NCBI GenBank assembly: GCA_016191815.1
Contig: JACPVI010000080.1
Location: 62,001 to 126,000 of the forward strand
Source: Myxococcales bacterium
GTDB lineage: Bacteria > Myxococcota > Myxococcia > Myxococcales > Myxococcaceae
Length of the DNA stretch: 64,000 bases
Reading direction: 5' to 3'
Within the stretch, counting starts at the first letter, position 1, and every line of letters starts with the position of its first letter. The translations under genes and the position numbers were made by a program. Of this stretch, positions 56,233 to 60,808 are shown one piece after another. The notes under the pieces were generated by a model. It did no database searches. It had not been told where the DNA came from and worked only from the letters and a program-made list of their open reading frames with translations.

Positions 56233-56294
56233 CGCTTCGTGCTGGGCCAGCGGCTTGTCGCCCGATCCCGGGTTGATGTTTGTTCGGCTCCAGG

Positions 56295-58394
56295 ATGCGC
56301 CGGAGACTCACAGCGTTCGCCGTCGCCGCCGCCGTGGCGCTGGCGTGCCGTGGGCCTCCCGACACGGGTGACCCGCCGGCGGACGCCGGGCTCGAGCCGA
56401 GAATCTGTGCGAGCCGGTTCCGACTCTCTTCCTCGGGGCTGAGCTGCGAGCCTTTGCTCCCCACGGGAGACTGCGCTCCCGGGACCCTCCCGATCCTCGG
56501 CTCGGAAGAGTGTCAGCCGGTGGGTTGGCGCGCTTGCCCCGCCGGGTTCGAGCCGGATCCGTCGGGCTGGGGCTGTGTCGAGGTGCTCCCCACCGCGGTC
56601 TGCGCGGGCGCCTGGATGGAGAGGCTCGGGTCCCCCACCTGCCAGCCCATCGGCGACTGCGCGCGGGTGTTTCCTCCAGCGCAGGCAACCCTATTCGTCG
56701 ACGCGCAATACGCCGACTCGCAGCTCGACGCCACGCACTTCCGCACCCTCGGCGCTGCGTTGGCTGCCGCACCCGCGGGCGCCACGGTCGCGGTGTACGA
56801 CGGCAGGTACTTCGAGCGGCTCAAGCCCGTGCAGAGCTTGAAGCTGGCCGGCAGGTGCGCCGAGAAGGTCATCATTCAGAGCACCGGCGCCGACCTCTCC
56901 GGAGTCCGCGCCTCCGGTCCGATCTCAGTCGAGATCAGCGGGGTGACTCTCATCGGCCACCGGGTCGGCGCCTGGGTGGACAGCGGCGGCTCGCTCACCT
57001 TGCGCGAGGTGCTGGTCGGCTCGAACCGCGAGCTGGGCATCTATGTCACCGGCGCGGGGAGCAAGGCGGTGGTGGAGGCCTCAGCGATCCGGGACACCTT
57101 GAACCCACCCGGGGCGAGCCTGGGCCAGGGAGTGAACGTCGAATCGGGAGGCACGCTGGAGCTTGGCGACAGCGAGATCCGCTCCAACCGCAGCCTTGGG
57201 CTCTACTTGACCGACGTGGGAAGCCGGGCCGAGGTGACGGGCACGGTGATCCGCGACACCATGCCCGACGGGCTGAACGAATCTGGCATCGGCGTCCTCC
57301 TCGAGAACGGGGCAGCTCTCGTCGCGTCGCGGACCGCCCTCATCGCGAACCTGGAGCGCGGCGTGGACGTGGTGGGCGGCACGATGGACCTCACCGACTC
57401 GGTGGTGCGGGACACTCGCTCGAACCGGCCGGACCTGCTCTCCGCGTCCGGAATCAACGCCGAAGGAGGTGCCCGCCTCCGCCTGAGCCGGGTCTCGCTC
57501 GTCTCGAACAGCACCATCGGCCTCGTCCTGCGCGGCAGCGGCACTACGGCCACGCTGCTCGACACGGTGGTGCGCTCCACGAAGCCTGGCCCCTCCGGCC
57601 GGGGGGCGGGCATCGAGCTGGTCGAAGGCGCCGAGCTTTCCCTCGGGGGCTCCGCGCTGGTGGACAACCCGATGGTCGGCCTGGTGCTGGTCGGCTCGAG
57701 GGCGACCGTGACCCGCTCGCTGGTGTTGGGCACGGTGCCCACGCAAGCCATGCCGAGCGCGGCCGGAGTCAGTGCGGAGACGAGCTCCTGCGTGAGCCTT
57801 GCGGACACCGCGGTCGTCGGCAACTGGGGCCTTGGAGTGCTGCTCCACGAATTAGCCGCCGGTTGCGAGGCGCAAGTAACAGGAAGCCTGATCGCCCACA
57901 CGCGGCCCACGCTCGATGGCCTTCGCGGGCGAGGCTTGGCCGCACAAGGCGCAAGGCTCACGATGAGCGACAGCGCGGTGGTTTCCAACCGGGGCATCGG
58001 CCTTATGGTGTCGCGGCCGTCGAGCCGGCTGGTGCTCGAGCGCTCCGCGGTGAGGGGCACCGTCCCCGAGCTTCCCCAGCGGTTCGGCCACGCGGTGGTC
58101 GCCTTCCCGGATACTTTCGTGAAGCTTTTGGACACCGACCTCGAGGCCAGCGCCGGCGTCGGCCTGGCGGTGTCGGGGGCGTCGGCCGCGGTGGTGGCGG
58201 GGGCGATCAGCGGCAACTCGGTGGCCGTGCACGTTCAAGACGGCAGCGAGCTCCAGGTAGCCGACATGGTGCCCGAGCAACCCGGCCCGCGCGAGGTGGT
58301 GATCTCCGAAGGGACAAGGTTCATCGACAACCTGGCCAGGACCGGAACGGGGGTCATCCCGCTACCGGAGCCGGTCGGTCCGCTGAAGCAGTGA
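56295..58394 (+). CDS. right-handed beta-helix lipoprotein
   Basis: The protein (699 residues from ATG 56295) has a lipobox (AVALAC), a Cys-rich N-terminal region with paired cysteines (CxP repeats such as CPAGFEPDPSGWGC) and, from about 130, a long array of repeating VVxxNxxxG-type strands typical of parallel beta-helix (DUF1565/pectate-lyase-like) proteins. No catalytic residues are obvious. It is probably a surface protein binding or structuring polysaccharide. A TTG at 56280 would add five residues. It converges on the VWA lipoprotein gene 42 bases away. Confidence 0.85.
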   Translation: MRRRLTAFAVAAAVALACRGPPDTGDPPADAGLEPRICASRFRLSSSGLSCEPLLPTGDCAPGTLPILGSEECQPVGWRACPAGFEPDPSGWGCVEVLPTAVCAGAWMERLGSPTCQPIGDCARVFPPAQATLFVDAQYADSQLDATHFRTLGAALAAAPAGATVAVYDGRYFERLKPVQSLKLAGRCAEKVIIQSTGADLSGVRASGPISVEISGVTLIGHRVGAWVDSGGSLTLREVLVGSNRELGIYVTGAGSKAVVEASAIRDTLNPPGASLGQGVNVESGGTLELGDSEIRSNRSLGLYLTDVGSRAEVTGTVIRDTMPDGLNESGIGVLLENGAALVASRTALIANLERGVDVVGGTMDLTDSVVRDTRSNRPDLLSASGINAEGGARLRLSRVSLVSNSTIGLVLRGSGTTATLLDTVVRSTKPGPSGRGAGIELVEGAELSLGGSALVDNPMVGLVLVGSRATVTRSLVLGTVPTQAMPSAAGVSAETSSCVSLADTAVVGNWGLGVLLHELAAGCEAQVTGSLIAHTRPTLDGLRGRGLAAQGARLTMSDSAVVSNRGIGLMVSRPSSRLVLERSAVRGTVPELPQRFGHAVVAFPDTFVKLLDTDLEASAGVGLAVSGASAAVVAGAISGNSVAVHVQDGSELQVADMVPEQPGPREVVISEGTRFIDNLARTGTGVIPLPEPVGPLKQ

Positions 58395-58439
58395 CGCCCG
58401 AGGGAGGCATGGAACGGGGCCCGGGCACGCCCGGCGTCA
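58392..58439. terminator. possible bidirectional terminator between convergent genes
   Basis: Between the two stops, TGACGCC and GGCGTCA (58392-58398 and 58433-58439) are inverted and include both stop codons. Inside, CCGGG-cacg-CCCGG (58421-58434) can form a small GC hairpin. No T-run follows, so the call is weak. Confidence 0.3.
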
Positions 58440-59408
58440 TTCACGGCAGGACTGATACTCGATCCTCACCGTGCCGCCCTCGGGCGGGCACGGCTGGACT
58501 TCGATGCTTCCCTCCCCGTACTGCTCGTCCGGAGGCCGGTACAGGTACTCCGCCGGCTCGCCGTTCACCTGCACGGAGATCCGCACCTCGGGATCAAGCC
58601 GCCGCCTCAAGGGGACGATGCACGGCGAGTAGGCGATCCGGCTGCTCACCGCCTCCAGCGTGCTGGTGTAGTCCGAGGTGCAGGTGGAGACGAACCCCCG
58701 CGGCCCGAAAGACCGCGCCAGGGCGACGAACCTCCAGCTCGACTTCGTCGCGTCGCAGCCCAGGTACCACCGCATGTCGAGGATCGCCGCCACCGTCACC
58801 GTGTCCGGCCTCTGCTTGAGGCCCCGCAGAAAGCCCGAGAACTCCGCGACGGTGCCGGTCGACTGGTCGTCCTCGTCGGCGACGTAGAGCACCGCGAGAT
58901 CCGCCGAGGGACGCAAAAAGCCGCGGTTGTCGTTCGAGGTCAAAGGCTCGCTGAGCGCGGCGCGGGTGGCGGCCAGCCCCTGCTCGCGCGCGCTGCCGCG
59001 GGTGCCCACGTTCACCATCTGCTGAAAAGCCGCCTCGAGGTTCGTTGTCTGGGGAGTGAGGTAGGGCGCCACCAACCTGCCGCTCCGCGTGCTGCTCCGC
59101 ATGTCGGTGGTGACCGCGCCGAGGTGGAAGTCGAGCTGGTGGGCGCGGAAACGCGAGATGAACGCCTGGAAGTTGGAAGCCAGCACCGACTGGTCGTTCC
59201 GCATGCTGCCGGAATCGTCGATCACGAGCAGCACGTCGACGGGCCGGCGCTCCATCGGCGGGAGCGTGAAGCTGTCCTCACCCCAGGGCTCGCAGTCGCT
59301 GCGCAGCTCGTCGCCCCCGTCGGACGCGTATCGAAGCGGCTGGGTGCGGCCGCACGCCGACAGGGCCAGGACCACGGCACCGAGCAGGATGGCGGCTCTG
59401 GACGGCAA
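58437..59408 (-). CDS. VWA-domain lipoprotein
   Basis: The protein (323 residues from TTG 59408) has a lipobox (LALSACG) and a VWA domain with the MIDAS DDSGS (about 62-66) in VDVLLVIDDSGSMRNDQ, then SADLAVLYVADEDDQSTG and a beta-rich tail ending RIEYQSCRE. The TTG is chosen because GGAG sits nine bases upstream and it gives a normal signal peptide; another TTG at 59480 would add a Trp/His-rich stretch unlike a leader. Such myxobacterial proteins are exported and metal-binding; the partner is unknown. Confidence 0.78.
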   Translation of the reverse strand: MPSRAAILLGAVVLALSACGRTQPLRYASDGGDELRSDCEPWGEDSFTLPPMERRPVDVLLVIDDSGSMRNDQSVLASNFQAFISRFRAHQLDFHLGAVTTDMRSSTRSGRLVAPYLTPQTTNLEAAFQQMVNVGTRGSAREQGLAATRAALSEPLTSNDNRGFLRPSADLAVLYVADEDDQSTGTVAEFSGFLRGLKQRPDTVTVAAILDMRWYLGCDATKSSWRFVALARSFGPRGFVSTCTSDYTSTLEAVSSRIAYSPCIVPLRRRLDPEVRISVQVNGEPAEYLYRPPDEQYGEGSIEVQPCPPEGGTVRIEYQSCRE

Positions 59409-59496
59409 CTGAGCGATCTCCGGCGTCCGGCCGACGCAGTGGCGGTTCCACTTGTAGCCCGGTCGCGACGGCCGCGGCAAATTGTCCCGGAGGCCC

Positions 59497-59681
59497 CTAG
59501 CCCGGACTACTCACCCGGCTGGCTACTGCGGCCGACGATCTGCCGCCTGCGCCGGGCGCTTCCGCCGTCCGCGCCTCGACGTGCCCACCAGCACGCCTGC
59601 GGTGCTCCGGCGTCCAGCGCTCCGGCTCGGCTGGCATCTCGTCGGCCTCGCGACGCCACCCGGGTGAATAATCCGGGCTAG
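59497..59681. mobile_element. MITE-like element with 22-bp terminal inverted repeats
   Basis: Bases 59497-59518 and 59660-59681 are inverted copies with two mismatches, beginning CTAGCCCGG at each outer end and enclosing about 140 bp of GC-rich DNA without a convincing gene. The right arm supplies the TAG stop of the App1-like gene. No transposase is encoded. The size and structure fit a MITE or a solo remnant of a transposon; the target duplication is not clear. Confidence 0.6.
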
Positions 59682-60808
59682 CCTCCCAGCATGCGATCGA
59701 TGTCCTGAACGCTGATCGCCAACCCTCCGGCCTTGGCGCTCTCCATCACGCGCCTGGCGGCGGCTTTCTCGAGCACTCCCTGCCCATGGAGGATGCCGGC
59801 CGCCTCCGCATAGTTGGAGACGAGGTGCATGCCGGCCACCCGCTCCGGCGGCACGGTCGCGGTGACCTTGTGGATGAACACCGCGGTGATCCGGCCCGGG
59901 TACTTGTCGAGGATCTGCCGATACACTTCGGGATCCTTGTGGTTCGAGTCCCCGAAGAGAACGAACTTCTGCCCGGGGTTCGCCTCCAGCACGCGCGAGA
60001 TGTCCGCCACCTTCTCCTTGAGGGCCACCCACGGGACGGTCGAAGTCCCTGTCTCGATCGGCCCCGCGGGAAGACCGTGGTCGGCCAGATACTCGTCGAC
60101 GTCCTCCGTCCGGTCCGGTGAACGAGCGGTGACGTAGGTGACGTCGCCGGCACTGCCCTCTCGCGCGAACTCCAGCTCGTGGAAGAGCTGGGCCACGCCC
60201 GGGTACGGCGAAGGCATCGGTTGTCCCAGCCGGTGCGCCGGGATGACCGTCTTGTCGAGGTCCGAGACGACGCCCAGCTCCGGCTGCGCGCCGGCCAGGG
60301 AGCGGGCGGCCGCCTCCAATTCGGTGCGGTTGAGGTACCCGTTGGTGTCGCCGACCCGCGCGGCCTCCAGGAGCGCCTGCAGGTCGGTGAGGCCGTGGGC
60401 CGCCATCACCTCGCGCACCACGTTCTCGCTGTAGCGCGGAGCCGAGACGTTGCTCAGGTAGTTGAAGTCCGCGCGCAGGCCGGAGGGAAGCCGCGCCGCG
60501 TCCGCCTTGGACAAGACGCCGTCGCTCCCGGCAGCGGCGGCGGCCGCCTCGAAGGCGTACTTGCGGCCGGCCGCGAGCAGGGTGCTCACGCTGGCCCGCG
60601 TGGAGACCCCGGTCGCTGCGAACACGTCGCGGGTGTTATCCGCCGCGAGCCGCGCGGCGCCGGTGAGCGAGTCTCCCCGCGCGGCTTCGTTCGCGGTCAG
60701 CTTGCCGTCGGCACCGGCGAGCTTCCGGATGGCCGGCTCGAGCACCTCTTTGGTCCAGGCGTCGGCGAAGGCCTGCGGAGTGGGCTTGGGCGGGAGCTTC
60801 ACGGGCAT
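59678..60808 (-). CDS. App1-like HAD-type phosphatase with EF-hand-like loops
   Basis: The 376-residue protein has Asp-rich loops resembling EF-hand/dockerin motifs in its first half (GADGKLTANEA, GSDGVLSKADA, DTNGYLNRTEL). A HAD-like/App1 catalytic domain follows, with VVSDLDKTV at about 180-188, YVTARSPDRTEDVDEYL and KFVLFGDSNHKDPEVYRQILDKYPGRITAVFI. App1 is a phosphatidate phosphatase; the true substrate here is open. ATG at 60808. The stop codon lies inside the inverted repeat of a MITE-like element, so the natural C-terminus may have been changed. Confidence 0.82.
   Translation of the reverse strand: MPVKLPPKPTPQAFADAWTKEVLEPAIRKLAGADGKLTANEAARGDSLTGAARLAADNTRDVFAATGVSTRASVSTLLAAGRKYAFEAAAAAAGSDGVLSKADAARLPSGLRADFNYLSNVSAPRYSENVVREVMAAHGLTDLQALLEAARVGDTNGYLNRTELEAAARSLAGAQPELGVVSDLDKTVIPAHRLGQPMPSPYPGVAQLFHELEFAREGSAGDVTYVTARSPDRTEDVDEYLADHGLPAGPIETGTSTVPWVALKEKVADISRVLEANPGQKFVLFGDSNHKDPEVYRQILDKYPGRITAVFIHKVTATVPPERVAGMHLVSNYAEAAGILHGQGVLEKAAARRVMESAKAGGLAISVQDIDRMLGG

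Follow-up and report, generated by a model that had tools for sequence, protein, structure and literature searches.

A hairpin element with IS1380-type ends at the stop codon of an App1-like gene in a Myxococcales genome

Within the window, which is the whole 64,000-nt stretch of a Myxococcales contig that we analyzed, the end of an App1-like gene overlaps a short inverted-repeat element that we regard with good confidence as a non-autonomous, MITE-type element of ~180 bp, in which IS1380 ends enclose a 133-nt core that was probably re-ended; the element as a whole most likely owes its movement to an IS1380 transposase supplied in trans. The element has the ends of IS1380 elements, occurs in two copies, is bordered in the window by CTAG on both sides, carries a core that belongs to a wider family, and leaves the frame of the neighboring gene unchanged when its flanks are joined. 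Its movement would have occurred by transposition in trans, and its core would descend from one with different ends, perhaps of IS1182 type, that were later replaced by those of IS1380. Throughout, G000 denotes the genome of the window, other G numbers denote compared genomes, C numbers denote contigs, and L numbers denote extracted loci.

The element, its copies and its IS1380-type ends

The element is situated between the App1-like gene and a second gene on the same strand (Table 1). Its inverted repeat consists of positions 59497-59518 (CTAGCCCGGACTACTCACCCGG) and 59660-59681, which are 22 bp in length with two mismatches and which an inverted-repeat search extends to 27 nt at 89% complementarity. 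The first-pass annotation had described 22-bp termini with two mismatches around about 140 bp, and this description was borne out, with an interior of 141 bp and a fold in which the whole 185 nt forms one long hairpin at -144.2 kcal/mol; dinucleotide-shuffled versions average -88.0 (z -13.9), and none of the 200 reached so low an energy. The middle had also been called empty, which is accurate insofar as the ORF list shows no transposase ORF (including DDE_Tnp_1_4) within 59497-59681, but the same middle is a conserved hairpin core containing a nested inverted repeat (59530-59555 and 59622-59647) that prolongs the hairpin.

Table 1. Features of the element and the adjoining genes (window coordinates).
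Feature	Position	Strand	Basis
App1-like gene, 376 aa, PF09949 (E 5.7e-18)	59678..60808	-	ORF list, domain match
Next gene, 347-aa ORF; weak CglD/MIDAS-adhesin similarity, below cut-off	58437..59480	-	
CTAG, left copy of presumed target duplication	59497..59500	.	sequence, equals 59678-59681
CTAG, right copy, contains App1 TAG stop (59680-59678, minus strand)	59678..59681	.	sequence
Left IS1380-type end, CCCGGACTACTCACC, two changes relative to IS end	59501..59515	+	sequence
Right IS1380-type end, CCCGGATTATTCACC, identical to IS1380 ends of L134, L135 and L437	59663..59677	-	
Left 24-nt arm, 21/24 positions paired with 59656-59679	59499..59522	+	arm pairing, L001
Right 24-nt arm	59656..59679	+	arm pairing, L001
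Hairpin core, 133 nt, member of widespread core family	59523..59655	+	fold, homology searches

Further genomic copies, for which a search had been proposed, are represented by a second copy in the same assembly (6.77 Mb) at G000:C12:14383-14562, which is 96% identical to the first and whose neighbors, a PilZ gene and a DnaJ/TPR gene, each end at its edge. The 16-nt end occurs at 51 places in this genome when up to three mismatches are allowed, and when at most one is allowed the only matches are three of the four ends of the two copies; matches to the core model described below number at least 17. Two IS1380-ended copies were all that we found in G000, which counts against the reading as an IS1380 MITE, and so does the second copy, which lacks CTAG and has the edges GCAG and CTCA. 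The window copy has CTAG at both edges, where a duplication of TA and one of CTAG are indistinguishable because CTAG is palindromic.

The characterization of the element as MITE-like is supported by the second copy, by CTAG on both sides, and by the presence of its ends on full-length IS1380-family elements elsewhere. Aligned with the end of L134, the right end in the window is identical at 19 of 19 bases, a stretch that includes the four of CTAG. L134 and L135, each 1.43 kb long with perfect ends and flanked by CTAG left and right, encode transposases of the IS1380 family (NF033539; 390.7 and 357.4 bits, respectively). A genome of the same bacterial family as the window, G006, contains a full IS1380 element (L276/L437) that matches exactly at either end and is bordered by two CTAG copies, and in G034 a locus (L280) displays both ends, one with a mismatch, together with a partial transposase match. 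Public genomes contain the end pattern TAGCCCGGAYTATTCACC in no fewer than 116 stretches, from Planctomycetota, Balneolia, sphingomonads, Chloroflexota and others, and a search of viral contigs yielded just three chance-like matches. Among the first 80 of these at least 116 public loci are 26 distinct two-ended elements of 61 to 1436 bp; TA flanks 23 of the 26 on both sides and CTAG flanks 10, in a search whose pattern forced TAG on the left. The annotation had also called for a transposase with the same ends, and full-length IS1380 elements in other genomes provide one, but in the assembly of the window (89 contigs, 98.76% complete) our searches turned up no IS1380 that is intact and carries these ends, a point against our reading. 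The sole PF13701 locus in that assembly is partial, with ends that differ at 3 of 15 bases.

We propose that the arms act as handles for the transposase and the core as a constant body. An IS1380 transposase provided in trans would have cut at the 15-bp ends of the element and inserted it at a CTAG. The target here would have been the CTAG that contains the App1 stop, and its duplication would have left both the stop and the protein unchanged.

We separately considered whether the element is a MITE formed by internal deletion of an IS1380 element and rejected this origin: in a comparison of the element with the 300-bp ends of three such insertion sequences, matches were confined to the ends save one, a 52-bp, 81% match of L134 that includes the end.

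One core family under different ends

Queried with the whole element, 3 of 96 genomes of the family gave matches at E up to 1e-6 (G000, G050 and G081), and across the order the middle alone turned up in 13 of 145. With a covariance model of the core and an E-value cut-off of 1e-5, the phylum-wide count is 34 genomes out of 195; the model was trained on 25 of these very elements, its E-values are rough, and its counts per genome cover the best 17 places at most. In 36 of 37 elements the arms pair at 16-23 of 24 positions (the exception is L403), compared with shuffled means of 9.9-12.8. Pairing at 18-24 of 24 positions was likewise observed for 36 of 40 further loci identified with the model, and the arms of the remaining four (L496, L512, L520 and L522) are unpaired.

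The arms of the core, which are ~24 nt long, vary in sequence by group. Sorted greedily with a cut-off of 13 identical bases in 17, on which the count depends, 64 elements fall into 17 classes, with L229 left out; classes 2, 14 and 15 are mutually similar, as are 8 and 9. Two of the 17 classes match IS ends, one of IS1380 and one of IS1182, and the other 15 showed no match among the IS loci compared, with a match rate about that of reversed controls. Arms of the second kind, GAGCRCCGAACAGGTT, frame the same core in G050, in G047 and at several places in the genome of the window, and they are the ends of the IS1182-family element L435 (540 aa; NF033551, 329.7 bits; CTAG edges). The genome of the window therefore contains the core under both IS1380 and IS1182 ends, the element in the window being of the former type. 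Further arm sequences are GTGCTCC.CCC.GG, GGAGGCTGGTGTGAAATGG, GAGCAGTTTCCTCTTGAA, AGCGCCGC... and TGGCGACACCC.... Among the IS1182 transposase loci examined in 22 core-bearing genomes, the ends of the local hairpins were absent; the IS1182 elements of G124 and G130 have ends that differ from the local hairpins, and those of G108 are also non-matching. Both the small number of matched classes and these differing IS1182 ends count against our reading. Short palindromes with the same ends and no core, 24 to 64 bp in length, occur as well (L365, L366, L378, L389, L400, L227 and L239); forms of this kind would be produced when long palindromes lose their center.

When mapped onto a tree of the cores, the arm classes require at least 21 changes, relative to a minimum of 16 and a shuffled mean of 47.3, which indicates that arms are mostly inherited with the core yet have changed many times. 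The two IS1380-ended copies form one branch of this tree (100/100). That branch is long (0.38) and falls, with weak support (81/90), in a set made up of same-family cores with IS1182 ends and further cores, a position that counts against our reading. A change of ends could have proceeded by exchange between palindromic elements or, alternatively, by capture of a core between two IS ends inserted at neighboring CTAG sites. It is also conceivable, but in our judgment unlikely, that arms were never exchanged and instead drifted slowly and jointly with diverging IS ends, the IS1380 match being a late convergence of one lineage. The constant arm length and the clustering of classes on the core tree are consistent with such drift, which may account for part of the classes but hardly for the exact IS1380 end, because identity over 15 bp is unlikely to arise by drift from an unrelated IS1182 end.

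If arms are exchanged, the core may be a passenger that switches transposons, with its outer 16-24 nt repeatedly replaced in Myxococcota-type genomes and with unrelated transposases (IS1380, IS1182 and probably others) moving the same hairpin, a generalization that we advance tentatively and at somewhat less than even odds. Such a core would have to possess a feature that favors passengers, e.g., a fold that joins both ends. MITEs are usually viewed as deletion remnants of one insertion sequence whose fate they share; a core that persists within the ends of different IS families would instead make the ends, and not the body, the disposable part. Its persistence under different IS ends would furthermore offer a natural series for testing what transposases need beyond the end sequence.

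Several known systems resemble the element in part. REP/BIME palindromes, which are moved by RAYT transposases, are likewise hairpin-forming, intergenic and multicopy, but the element is much longer and features IS-type ends and presumed target duplications. It shares 15-bp ends and CTAG edges with the IS1380 family (NF033539, PF13701), from which it differs in lacking a transposase and in having an interior without a clear IS match beyond the ends. MITEs with IS ends are already well known, and PMC4133298 describes bacterial MITEs (Correia elements, TIMEs of Tn3) that are similarly short, lack a transposase and have IS-like inverted ends, short direct repeats at their edges and a stably folding transcript. 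In contrast to those MITEs, the middle of the element does not stem from the IS to which it owes its ends, and its core occurs inside the ends of two unrelated IS families. In PMC3281130, the direct repeats tabulated for one element each of the IS1380 and IS1182 families measure 5 bp and 4 bp, respectively. A literature search, from whose scope subscription papers and ISfinder were excluded, returned no description of the core, nor of one core under the ends of different IS families.

Two further explanations for the hairpin appear improbable to a similar degree. The first is that it persists for its function as an RNA or 3'-end structure (a terminator or mRNA protector), with incidental mobility, as could be argued from the very stable fold, from arms that remain complementary despite sequence differences from class to class, and from the location of both copies at gene ends. 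However, complementarity is a property of the inverted ends of every transposon and needs no RNA role, Rfam yielded 0 matches in L001, L002, L061 and L003 at E up to 1, and RNAalifold of the core alignment predicted 25 pairs with a small covariation term of -1.67, though the arms were poorly aligned by MAFFT. The overlap with in-frame stops described below, moreover, is just weakly above that of other frames. The second is that the core itself is the mobile unit, which enters the center of palindromes made of two IS ends, such that the arms are its target. Core-less palindromes of the required type exist, among them a 24-bp IS1182 one in the genome of the window (L227) and others of 50-62 bp in G111, G113 and G116, but central deletion of a long palindrome explains these shorter forms equally well. 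Arms that stop at ~24 nt in class after class are also unlike random palindromes, and no enzyme for the core is known.

The App1-like gene and overlaps with stop codons

The TAG of the App1-like gene had been placed inside one terminus of the element, and the codon indeed lies in the right terminus. The accompanying claim that the element supplies this stop is correct only in the sense that the TAG belongs to the duplicated target CTAG: in a simulated empty site, in which the flanks are joined with one CTAG, App1 ends at the same TAG with identical 376 residues. Because of this result, the suggestion that the insertion truncated or rewrote the C terminus of App1 is not supported and is very improbable, even though the stop sits in the terminus and the nearest homologue (G052; 56% over residues 175-374) extends about six residues further, as that homologue aligns up to residue 374 of 376, past the PF09949 catalytic domain match at residues 199-313. 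The tails of App1 and its G052 homologue do differ slightly, but the sequences compared, none of which is a close homologue with an empty site, give no ground for attributing this difference to the insertion. Whenever an element enters a CTAG containing a TAG stop, the upstream gene gets its stop back, and a target that contains a stop (CTAG here, TGA in other lineages) would therefore permit a harmless mode of insertion, in which duplication restores the stop. Farther along, the 347-aa ORF is adjoined by a 704-aa ORF with right-handed beta-helix repeats (PF13229; window 56280-58394).

Counts across genomes are suggestive of enrichment for, or targeting of, stop codons, although the signal is weak. 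For IS1380 ends from public genomes, the junction TAG terminates an open frame of 100 or more codons on 20 of 109 sides, relative to 15 and 11 in the other frames and to 10.7% for control TAGs. For IS1182-type ends in G050 and G000, the corresponding numbers are 12 of 34 in frame versus 8 and 5 (control, 20.5%). Hairpins ending in TGGCG, whose hosts we take to be Anaeromyxobacter-like (the genus name is our guess), show 24 of 32 TGA sides in frame versus 19 and 10 in the other frames, and in 21 of 32 the two edges carry an identical triplet, TGA or TCA among those listed. G111, with 86 arm matches, carries TGGCG-ended hairpins by the dozen; they measure 50 to 221 bp and mostly have TGA or TCA edges, and a transposon with TGGCG ends was not seen in that genome. 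We also observed that in L135 (L135:1152-2450) the frame of the IS1380 transposase reads across the right end of the element (…VNNPG) and is terminated by the TAG within the CTAG target.

HNH endonuclease genes near the core

HNH endonuclease genes were evaluated as a possible autonomous partner and rejected, since at 26 of 30 HNH loci a core half is absent. Two long elements of G111, L364 (G111:C121) and L387 (G111:C89), have an HNH-like ORF between the core halves. Of the remaining loci, L404, which is the same place as L364, contains both core halves, L414 has a whole core alongside, and L407 and L419 each show one weak core match. At L380/L381 (G112:C56), an HNH unit occupies the loop of a hairpin with CCTTACAGG on both of its edges, which we interpret as a nested insertion. 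The family of HNH-endonuclease-like genes has 14 matches in G000 and 10 to 37 in each of the nine related genomes with matches.
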